Origin: Salinirussus salinus
GTDB taxonomy: Archaea; Halobacteriota; Halobacteria; Halobacteriales; Haloarculaceae
Reading direction: 5' to 3'
Assembly: GCF_009831455.1 (NCBI RefSeq)
Contig: NZ_WOWO01000001.1
Span: 248,001-312,000 of the forward strand
Length of the DNA stretch: 64,000 nucleotides
Below the pieces are notes generated by a model. The model did not search any database. It was not told the DNA's origin and saw only the letters and a list, made by a program, of their open reading frames with translations. This document shows, piece after piece, positions 18,016 through 20,628 of this stretch. Within the stretch, counting starts at the first letter, position 1. Each line of letters starts with the position of its first letter. The position numbers and the translations under genes are program-made.

Positions 18016-18708
18016 TCAGGAGGTGGCCTCCACGACGGTCTCGACGTCCGAGAGGACGCGCTCGTGGTCCGGCCGGTCGGTCCGGTAGGCCCGTTCGACG
18101 ACCCCGTCCGGATTCCGGAGGAACGTCAGCGAGAGGTGCCGGAAGTCGTAGCCCGGGAGACGCCGGGACTCGCCCGCACCGACCCGCTCGAACGTGATGC
18201 CGAGCTTCTCGTCGACCACCGTCTCCGCGCGGGCCGCCGACTCCGGGCGCAGGAACCGCCAGTTCCCCGCCCCCATGTCGATGTTCATTTTGCGGGCGTA
18301 CTCCCTGAGTAGCTCGGCGTCGTCGCGCTCGGGGTCGAACGTGATCGCCAGGAACGTCACCTCGTCGCCGATACCCCGCTCGAGGGTTCCGTGCTGGACA
18401 CCCGCCAGCTGGCCGACGAGACGGACACACTCGACGGGACAGCTGGCGAAGAAGCCGGTCACGACCAGCGTCCCATCGATGGCGGTGCTGTCGACCACCT
18501 CGTCGGCCAGTGGGTCCGGTAGGCTGAACGCCGGCAGCGCCTCCCCGTGGGCCGGATACGGGAGGTCGCTGCTGTCGAACTGCCGGTCTCGCGGCGGGTC
18601 GAGAACAGTCTCACCAGCGGTCGTGCTGTCCCCGAGAACCGTGGTGAGACAGCCGGAACTCGCCGCGGCGACGCCGAGACCAGCCGCAAGGTAGGTTCGT
18701 CTCTCCAT
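18016..18708 (-). CDS. SCO1/SenC-family copper chaperone lipoprotein
   Basis: 230 aa. Twin-residue Arg N-terminus (MERRTYLAAG) and lipobox SSGC (Cys20) predict a lipid-anchored extracytoplasmic protein. The copper ligands of SCO proteins are all present: Cys90 and Cys94 (FFASCPVECV) and His191 (YDFRHLS). SCO proteins load or reduce the Cu-A site of haem-copper oxidases, and some serve N2O reductase. First gene of the operon. Its minus-strand promoter (TTACAT at 18733-18738) is preceded by an 11-bp element that is mirrored in front of the divergent HiPIP-NosL gene. Confidence 0.9.
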   Translation of the reverse strand: MERRTYLAAGLGVAAASSGCLTTVLGDSTTAGETVLDPPRDRQFDSSDLPYPAHGEALPAFSLPDPLADEVVDSTAIDGTLVVTGFFASCPVECVRLVGQLAGVQHGTLERGIGDEVTFLAITFDPERDDAELLREYARKMNIDMGAGNWRFLRPESAARAETVVDEKLGITFERVGAGESRRLPGYDFRHLSLTFLRNPDGVVERAYRTDRPDHERVLSDVETVVEATS

Positions 18709-18732
18709 CGATCGAGGCTCGTCAACTCACGG

Positions 18733-18794
18733 ATGTAAGCCGTCTGGTGCACCCTTCGAAAACTTCCGACAGCCACACCAGACGGCCTATTATT
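18733..18794. promoter_or_regulatory. Mirror-image divergent promoter between sco and the HiPIP-NosL gene
   Basis: Two perfect 11-bp inverted copies of CACCAGACGGC lie at 18776-18786 (plus strand) and 18739-18749 (minus strand), 26 bp apart. Each directly abuts an A/T box: CTATTATT (18787-18794) for the plus gene, starting at 18816, and TTACAT (18738-18733, minus strand) for sco, starting at 18708. Both boxes are about 25-27 bases from their ATG. The 11-mer thus occupies the BRE/activator position of both promoters, which implies one regulator acting on both. Confidence 0.82.
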
Positions 18795-18815
18795 GCCGCC
18801 GACCCAGCTTCCGGT

Positions 18816-19676
18816 ATGGACGGTCCGACCACCCCAGTTGACCGACGCAGACTGCTCGCGCTGATCGGTGCCAGTTCCGCTGTCGCCCTGGCGGGCTGTG
18901 CCGGCGGGGGCGACGACGGCGACGGCTCGCCTCCGACGGACACGCCGACGCCGAGCGACGTCGTCCCGGAGGAGTACCGGACCGCGGCCAGCCTGAACGA
19001 CAGACAGCGCGACCCTGATGCGCTCTCGGCCAAGAGCGACGTGAACTATCAGGACGAACCGGACGACGGCCAGCAGTGTTCGGGCTGTGCGTACTACATC
19101 CCGGACAGGAACGGCGACGGCGTCGGTGCCTGCTCGATCGTTGAGGGGAACATCGAGCCGAGCGGGTACTGCGTGAGCTACGCCGCACACGAGGAGGGAA
19201 CCAGTACGGACGGCGACAGCACCGGGGACGGCGAACCGTCGCTCGCGCCCGCCGACGTCCCCGGGGACGCGGAGTGTGCCGTCTGTGGCATGACCGTCGC
19301 GAACTTCCCGGAGTGGAACGCCCAGACGGTCCACGAGGACGACACCCGCGAGTTCTTCTGCACCGCCGGCTGTGCGACCACCTACTACGCCGTCACCGAC
19401 CAGTTCGCCGACACCGATGCGGCTATCGCAGGCCTCTGGGTCAGGGACTTCGACAGCCGGGAGCTGGTCGACGGCACGAGCGCGTCCTACGCGCTCGAGA
19501 CCGACTCCGACCGCGTCGACGACCCGATGCGGCTGAACCCCGCGCCGTTCGCGACCCGCGAGGACGCCGTTGCCTACGTCGAGGCGGTGGCTCACCTCAC
19601 CGTCGAGGACATCGTCGAGCTGTCGGCGTTCGACCGAGACCTGGCCGAGCAGTACCGCGGCCGGCTGATCGAGTGA
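18816..19676 (+). CDS. Fusion lipoprotein: HiPIP-like iron-sulfur domain plus NosL copper-binding domain
   Basis: 286 aa. Signal with DRRRLLALIG and lipobox ALAGC (Cys28). The first domain (about 50-125) has four Cys, C88-x2-C91-x14-C106-x12-C119, with YYIPDRNGDG and PSGYCVSY, the pattern of high-potential iron-sulfur proteins. An acidic linker (about 126-145) leads to a NosL domain (about 150-286) with ECAVCGMTV (Cys154, Cys157, Met159) and FFCTAGC. NosL binds Cu(I) for N2O reductase maturation. Joined, the two could pair an electron carrier with copper delivery. No nosZ is seen nearby. Start set by ATG 18816 with its A/T box. Confidence 0.87.
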   Translation: MDGPTTPVDRRRLLALIGASSAVALAGCAGGGDDGDGSPPTDTPTPSDVVPEEYRTAASLNDRQRDPDALSAKSDVNYQDEPDDGQQCSGCAYYIPDRNGDGVGACSIVEGNIEPSGYCVSYAAHEEGTSTDGDSTGDGEPSLAPADVPGDAECAVCGMTVANFPEWNAQTVHEDDTREFFCTAGCATTYYAVTDQFADTDAAIAGLWVRDFDSRELVDGTSASYALETDSDRVDDPMRLNPAPFATREDAVAYVEAVAHLTVEDIVELSAFDRDLAEQYRGRLIE

Positions 19677-19728: not shown

Positions 19729-20241
19729 TCAGTCGAGGAGCGCGTCGTCGACCAGCCGGGTGAACCGGTCGACCAGACGGTCCGGGGCCGAAGGCGAGAC
19801 CTCGTCGAGCAGTCGGCGCGTCTCGTCGGGTCGAGTCAGCCTGATGTGGCTCCGGCCGTGTTCGTCGTAACACTTCTCCGCGACACCCGCGTCGACGAGC
19901 GTCGAGACGTGCCAGGAGACCGTGCTCCGGGCCACGTCGAGGTCCGTTGCCAGGTCGGCGGCCGACGGCTCCGGCTCCTTGAGCGCGGCGACGATGATGC
20001 CCCGGACGGTTTCGCGCCGGAGGAGGGCGATCGTTCGCTGCTCCCAGGGGTCGTACCCCTCCGGGAAGTAGTGGGTACGGTCGCGGACCTTCGCGGTATC
20101 GAGCCCCCCCGCACGACGGAGCCGGCGGAGGTGGTACTGCGCCTGCCCGGTCGCGATGCCGAGGTTGCGGGCGAGTTCGTTGAAGTGGACGCCCGGGTTG
20201 GATTCGATGTGTCGGCGGATCGCCCGTCTCACCTCGCTCAT
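19729..20241 (-). CDS. Double winged-helix transcriptional regulator
   Basis: 170 aa. Two helix-turn-helix regions: about 5-55 (IESNPGVHFNELARNLGIAT) and about 85-150 (PSAADLATDLDVARSTVSWH). Between them lies a short linker with YFPEGYDPWEQRTIALLRRET, a pattern common in haloarchaeal regulators paired with membrane proteins. ATG 20241 is preferred; a GTG at 20307 would put a 19-bp palindrome inside the gene. It faces away from the NosL gene (convergent) and follows the DUF7471-like gene. It is the nearest candidate regulator for the Sco/NosL promoter. Confidence 0.82.
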   Translation of the reverse strand: MSEVRRAIRRHIESNPGVHFNELARNLGIATGQAQYHLRRLRRAGGLDTAKVRDRTHYFPEGYDPWEQRTIALLRRETVRGIIVAALKEPEPSAADLATDLDVARSTVSWHVSTLVDAGVAEKCYDEHGRSHIRLTRPDETRRLLDEVSPSAPDRLVDRFTRLVDDALLD

Positions 20242-20281
20242 GGGAGCCACTAGCCGCCTCTCGGTAAAGACACTCGCTGGC

Positions 20282-20300
20282 GTTCCCAGCTGCTGGGAAC
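20282..20300. promoter_or_regulatory. Perfect 19-bp palindrome before the winged-helix gene
   Basis: GTTCCCAGC (20282-20290), one base, GCTGGGAAC (20292-20300). It lies 41 bases before the regulator's ATG and 7 bases after the stop of the upstream membrane-protein gene. This is the expected place for an autoregulatory operator; a short transcript hairpin is the alternative. Confidence 0.6.
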
Positions 20301-20307
20301 GTAGCAC

Positions 20308-20628
20308 TCAGCCGGCCCGCGACGGCGTCCCGGTGCTGTACAGCGCGTACAGGACGAGCGTGGCGACTGCGAAATCCGAGCCGTGCTCGATGAGGTGGTG
20401 AACCGGCATCGGAACGATGCCGAGCACCGTCCCGAATCCGATGACCGACCGGGAGACGAGAATCCCGAGCGCGGCCGTCACCAGGAGGTAGACCCTCGTC
20501 CGTCGCCGGCGGTAGCCGACCAGCCCGGTCAGAAACAGCGTCGCTGTCCCGAGCGTCGCGAGGACGAGTACGGCGAGGATCGCCGCCGCCTCGGCCCCGC
20601 TCACCCAATCGGCCGCGGACGGGAACAT
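20308..20628 (-). CDS. DUF7471-like three-helix membrane protein
   Basis: 106 aa. Three hydrophobic helices (about 12-36, 44-63 and 80-97) with a conserved-looking PVHHLIEHGSD segment that supplies three His in a membrane-near loop, a possible metal or haem site. Proteins of this type often sit beside the double winged-helix regulator in haloarchaea; the family name is from memory. Upstream of and in line with the regulator, probably one transcript. Confidence 0.7.
   Translation of the reverse strand: MFPSAADWVSGAEAAAILAVLVLATLGTATLFLTGLVGYRRRRTRVYLLVTAALGILVSRSVIGFGTVLGIVPMPVHHLIEHGSDFAVATLVLYALYSTGTPSRAG

Follow-up and report, generated by a model that had tools for sequence, protein, structure and literature searches.

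The stretch of Salinirussus salinus DNA analysed here (64 kb; hereafter, the window) carries two divergently oriented copper-chaperone genes on either side of a 107-bp intergenic region (18709–18815): an SCO1/SenC copper chaperone on the minus strand (SCO; 18016–18708; Pfam PF02630, 43.2 bits) and a NosL copper chaperone with an N-terminal HiPIP-like domain on the plus strand (18816–19676; PF05573 and PF01355, both above cut-off). Judging by gene order, SCO is likely the first gene of an operon (SCO–DsbD_2–TlpA-like–CcdA-like) that runs from 18708 down to 15968. The HiPIP-like region (PF01355) is fused N-terminally to NosL, and close full-length relatives of this protein are present in Salinibaculum and Haloarchaeobius. 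Adjoining NosL on the minus strand are genes for a tandem winged-helix (wHTH) protein of the HVO_0163 family (19729–20307; PF24266, 112.3 bits against a cut-off of 31), our candidate regulator, and for a small hydrophobic DUF7471 protein with an HHLIEH stretch (20308–20628; PF24283), which recurs beside the regulator gene.

The intergenic region contains two exact copies of CACCAGACGGC, one on the SCO side (18739–18749, minus strand) and one on the NosL side (18776–18786, plus strand), and, as an earlier sequence-only reading had pointed out, these identical 11-mers touch A/T boxes in both directions. Both boxes, TTACAT for the SCO promoter (18733–18738, minus strand) and TATTATT for the NosL promoter (18788–18794, plus strand), are TATA-like on the basis of the A/T enrichment at this offset among 84 collected sites, and they lie about 25–27 nt from the respective ATG; given the roughly 27 nt between TTACAT and its start codon, the SCO transcript is predicted to be leaderless. 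The two copies of CACCAGACGGC form an inverted repeat with 14-nt arms (one mismatch, 93% complementary) that stand 26 nt apart. An 11-bp perfect inverted repeat was rare in dinucleotide-shuffled copies of the intergenic region (P = 0.0007); over the whole window, 14 comparable repeats were found versus 4.5 in shuffles, so the pair by itself is only moderately surprising and constitutes weak evidence. What establishes the paired element as real is its conservation in relatives, described below, and not the repeat itself. With mismatches allowed, the paired arrangement was unique in the genome, and the runners-up had three mismatches, which is the control level. The 11-mer did less well as a promoter word in its own right. 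The same reading had proposed a genome search for CACCAGACGGC beside a TATA box; searching for the 11-mer gave nine exact copies where about five are expected, seven of them away from the SCO/NosL promoter and none of these seven with an adjoining A/T box. We therefore rejected it as a genome-wide promoter word: its frequency is near background, and only its CACCAGAC part, together with a TTCG further upstream, is conserved.

The conserved unit is a two-part half-site of 19 bp, TTCG-N7-YACCAGAC, with CACCAGAC as its second part; the terminal GGC of the 11-mer showed no preference among the 84 sites. Outside the positions fixed by the pattern, these sites preferred A after TTCG and YTAT at the TATA position, and in nearly all promoters the half-site was followed by a TATA box about 4 bp on and by the start codon 31–34 nt on. 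The half-site towards SCO (TTCGAAGGGTGCACCAGAC; 18742–18760, minus strand) matches the consensus exactly, and that towards NosL (TCCGACAGCCACACCAGAC; 18765–18783, plus strand) has one mismatch (T to C); their distances to the respective start codons are 33 and 32 nt. The two half-sites stand back to back with a gap of 4 bp, and the distal TTCG is about 18 bp from the TATA box, starting about 51 nt from the start codon. The proposal that one promoter module faces both directions thus holds for the conserved half-site, which is present towards SCO and towards NosL. Since the two copies differ (TTCG towards SCO, TCCG towards NosL), expression of the two genes need not be equal.

In Salinibaculum KK48 and in two species of Haloarchaeobius, the region between the SCO and NosL orthologues retains GTCTGGTGCA...YACCAGAC at an unchanged distance, and the dyad with the identical 4-bp gap is kept in both genera. 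As an unbiased test, we ranked SCO homologues of the class by protein homology alone and aligned the upstream regions of the best 30. The half-site was found with at most one mismatch in 28/30 of these promoters (exact in 24/30), many of the 30 loci being Halorubrum-like with a single half-site and many loci belonging to one genus (g26); only 0.03% of shuffled promoters reached the same level. The distance from the half-site to the start codon used was 32–34 nt in 29/30 loci. As many promoters carry one half-site only, we rejected the palindrome as an obligatory dyad, and where dyads occur their gaps vary (4, 11, about 29 bp or more). The module is an oriented half-site, of which the window carries two. 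A search of 392 Halobacteria genomes for the half-site pattern followed by an ATG at 26–46 nt was positive in 139, with well over 100 sites among the matches listed, compared with about 13 matches in all for the reversed pattern used as control. One genus (g43; L061–L066) contains several copies per genome of inverted repeats of the form GTCTGGTTGAGTGAATGTGTT...AACCAGAC; these probably represent mobile-element ends and were rejected as relatives of the box.

The genes behind the half-sites in 40 fetched stretches encode SCO, NosL, NosD, DsbD_2-like and DUF7350 proteins. The boxed NosD genes precede those for an ABC ATPase and a permease (NosF and NosY), and the DUF7350 target proteins have a P19/Tp34-like domain. 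Among homology-defined gene classes in the fetched stretches, a site with at most two mismatches preceded 22/30 nosD, 13/19 SCO and 9/15 NosL genes, as against 10/321 other genes, 0/37 HTH genes and 0/10 DUF7471 genes, counts that are illustrative given that part of the stretches was chosen by the site (the 30 SCO loci above are the unbiased test). For the present analysis, we defined the box of this copper-delivery regulon as TTCG-N7-YACCAGAC with at most one mismatch, a start codon 31–36 nt downstream, a TATA box between them and a gene of the SCO/NosL/NosD/DsbD_2/DUF7350 set; both promoters in the window fall within this definition. The genome of Salinirussus itself contains three clear half-site promoters and a weaker one. 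The clear sites precede SCO (exact), NosL (one mismatch) and an SCO paralogue (exact; C2:27687) that adjoins a nosLDFY-like cluster (L187, 3295–9585, contig C2), and the weaker box, TTCGACGGCCGGACCAGAA, lies 31 nt before the ATG of a DUF7350 gene that neighbours a second PF24266 regulator and a DUF7471 gene (L250; C3:513588–514082 region). Two family models found no full-length NosZ in this genome; therefore the client enzyme there is probably another copper enzyme, such as a CuA oxidase.

The candidate regulator has the HVO_0163-type (PF24266) architecture: HTH_HVO_0163_N as the first winged helix, followed by a second one recognized by HTH_20/HTH_5 at residues 104–145. Its AlphaFold model was weak (pLDDT 60), too weak for a fold search, with a secondary structure that agrees with this architecture; searching solved structures with the protein gave only marginal wHTH matches. 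Homologues are present in 334/392 Halobacteria genomes, usually in one copy, and nosL, nosD/F/Y, SCO or DUF7471 genes were neighbours at 29/30 best-matching HTH loci. Nearly half of the box sites (45/91) have a listed HTH homologue within 10 kb, compared with a purely positional expectation of about 0.7%; the other half have no HTH gene nearby. At the level of genomes, the homologue is present in 133/139 box-positive versus 201/253 box-negative genomes (odds ratio 5.7; Fisher P = 5 × 10⁻⁶, not corrected for kinship). Adjacency and co-occurrence thus make the nearby double-wHTH protein, which the sequence-only reading had put forward for binding tests, the leading candidate, and that a single regulator, possibly this protein, governs these promoters is well supported as a hypothesis. 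Some of the 201 genomes that have the HTH gene and no exact box may be explained by the box variants CACCACAC, CACCAAAC and ACTACGG, seen by inspection. The two recognition helices (ATGQxQYH and RSTxxWH) hardly vary among 37 proteins, as expected if one protein reads both parts of the site. The box was absent from the HTH gene's own promoter in 37/37 loci and from the region upstream of 20628 in the window, and autoregulation through TTCG-N7-YACCAGAC was accordingly rejected. The Haloferax volcanii homologue, HVO_0163, goes up under hypochlorite (PMC10294847). In two genomes (G059 and G101; L194 and L196), NosL stands beside a regulator-family gene with a variant site, TTCGAGGAACGTACTACGG, and the recognition-helix residues of these regulators differ (QHH for QYH and EYH for SWH), a possible change of specificity.

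We favour, with moderate confidence, a reading in which the two back-to-back half-sites, each before its own TATA box, are read by the HVO_0163-family protein as a candidate activator at both promoters. The gene adjoining NosL probably encodes this reader. By analogy, the protein probably activates rather than represses, because the box lies directly 5′ of the BRE/TATA at a fixed spacing, a position from which the haloarchaeal regulator OxsR activates (from 3′ sites it represses; PMC9426492). One winged helix of the tandem protein would contact TTCG and the other CACCAGAC, and the bound regulator would help TFB/TBP at both the SCO and the NosL promoter; coordination of the divergent pair is suggested by the fact that both promoters bear the same site. 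The genes that deliver copper to extracytoplasmic copper enzymes would then rise and fall together, in response to copper, oxygen/redox or a signal relayed by the DUF7471 protein, a possible sensor partner of HVO_0163-type regulators. We extend this only tentatively, and with less than even confidence, to a class-wide system in which a two-headed HVO_0163 wHTH protein with a membrane-like DUF7471 partner, using one winged helix per part of the site, would set the copper supply to extracytoplasmic copper enzymes.

The main rival keeps the half-site and the regulon and makes the HVO_0163-family protein an ArsR-like repressor that would cover the BRE and leave the DNA on a signal; we regard this as possible and, on balance, unlikely. 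ArsR-family proteins are mostly repressors, and the second winged helix matches ArsR-type models weakly. In addition, only about 4 bp separate the end of the proximal arm from the TATA box, and part of the box falls within the expected BRE, where occlusion might cause repression. The TATA box and the start nevertheless lie outside the site, a conserved Cys pair was not seen in the protein (C146, H150 and H154 are variable) and upstream sites of OxsR activate (PMC9426492). A distinctly more doubtful alternative grants the half-site and hands it to another reader, for example a Bat-type HTH_10 protein such as NarO, with the central CGAA-N4-TTCG-like sequence as a denitrification box. Although the centre in Salinibaculum is CGAAATACTTCG and CGAAYATDKTYG governs the nos and nor promoters of Haloferax mediterranei, the published box lies 66–79 nt from the ATG (PMC10062603) as against about 51 nt for TTCG in the window. 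Moreover, the window centre, CGAAAACTTCCG, has three mismatches to the CGAAYATDKTYG consensus and so is not such a box, and single-sided Halorubrum-like promoters keep TTCG-N7-CACCAGAC without a CGAA partner. We consider it very improbable that the reader is an alternative TFB, as had also been suggested, with CACCAGAC as an extended BRE for a specific TFB paralogue: the spacing between CACCAGAC and the adjoining TATA box is indeed constant, but specificity is not confined to a BRE next to the TATA box, given that the 19-bp two-part site reaches well past it to a conserved TTCG about 13 bp further upstream at fixed spacing, and the box, confined to copper-delivery genes, does not mark a broad promoter class. 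A chance inverted repeat without function, for which the excess of such repeats over shuffles in the window and the near-background frequency of the 11-mer could speak, merits practically no credence and is refuted by the comparative data, that is, by conservation at the same place in the 28 SCO promoters and over the nos/SCO gene set.

Respiration and denitrification in haloarchaea rely on copper enzymes. Yet none of the regulators annotated in Haloferax mediterranei was copper-specific in a published survey of that species' copper genes (PMC9240420), a gap that the conserved box and its candidate regulator open to short experiments. The box also links the widespread, uncharacterised haloarchaeal HVO_0163 family to a likely regulon and offers a clear example of the placement of archaeal activators on core promoters. 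If the tentative class-wide system is real, archaea would have a dedicated regulator of copper delivery, not of copper efflux.

In the open-licence literature searched, we came across no paper describing the box or the regulon; the box belongs with haloarchaeal upstream regulatory sites, and the specific regulon and its candidate regulator appear to be undescribed there. The denitrification box CGAAYATDKTYG (NarO-type; PMC10062603, PMC11218638) is likewise semi-palindromic and located upstream of haloarchaeal copper-enzyme genes, with nos among its targets. The present site differs from it in sequence, in that a single oriented half-site is enough and in abutting the TATA box, and its targets are copper-delivery proteins, whereas those of the denitrification box are reductases. 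The CG-rich motif of OxsR in Haloferax volcanii also lies just upstream of the BRE/TATA, is read by a small wHTH protein (a candidate in our case) and activates from the upstream position (PMC9426492); it differs in sequence, in its TrmB-like single-wHTH reader with a redox cysteine and in its hypochlorite-stress regulon. The bop upstream activator sequence, shared by bop and crtB1 (Bat/Brz), is another haloarchaeal case in which a single activator element placed before the core promoter coordinates several promoters, as the present box would; sequence, regulator family and genes differ, as far as the text cited in PMC3184054 and general knowledge of that system allow the comparison. Bacterial copper-responsive repressors of the CsoR/CopY type (PMC9240420) control copper-related genes as well, but these serve copper efflux, in contrast to the genes described here, which deliver copper to enzymes and whose candidate regulator belongs to another family.
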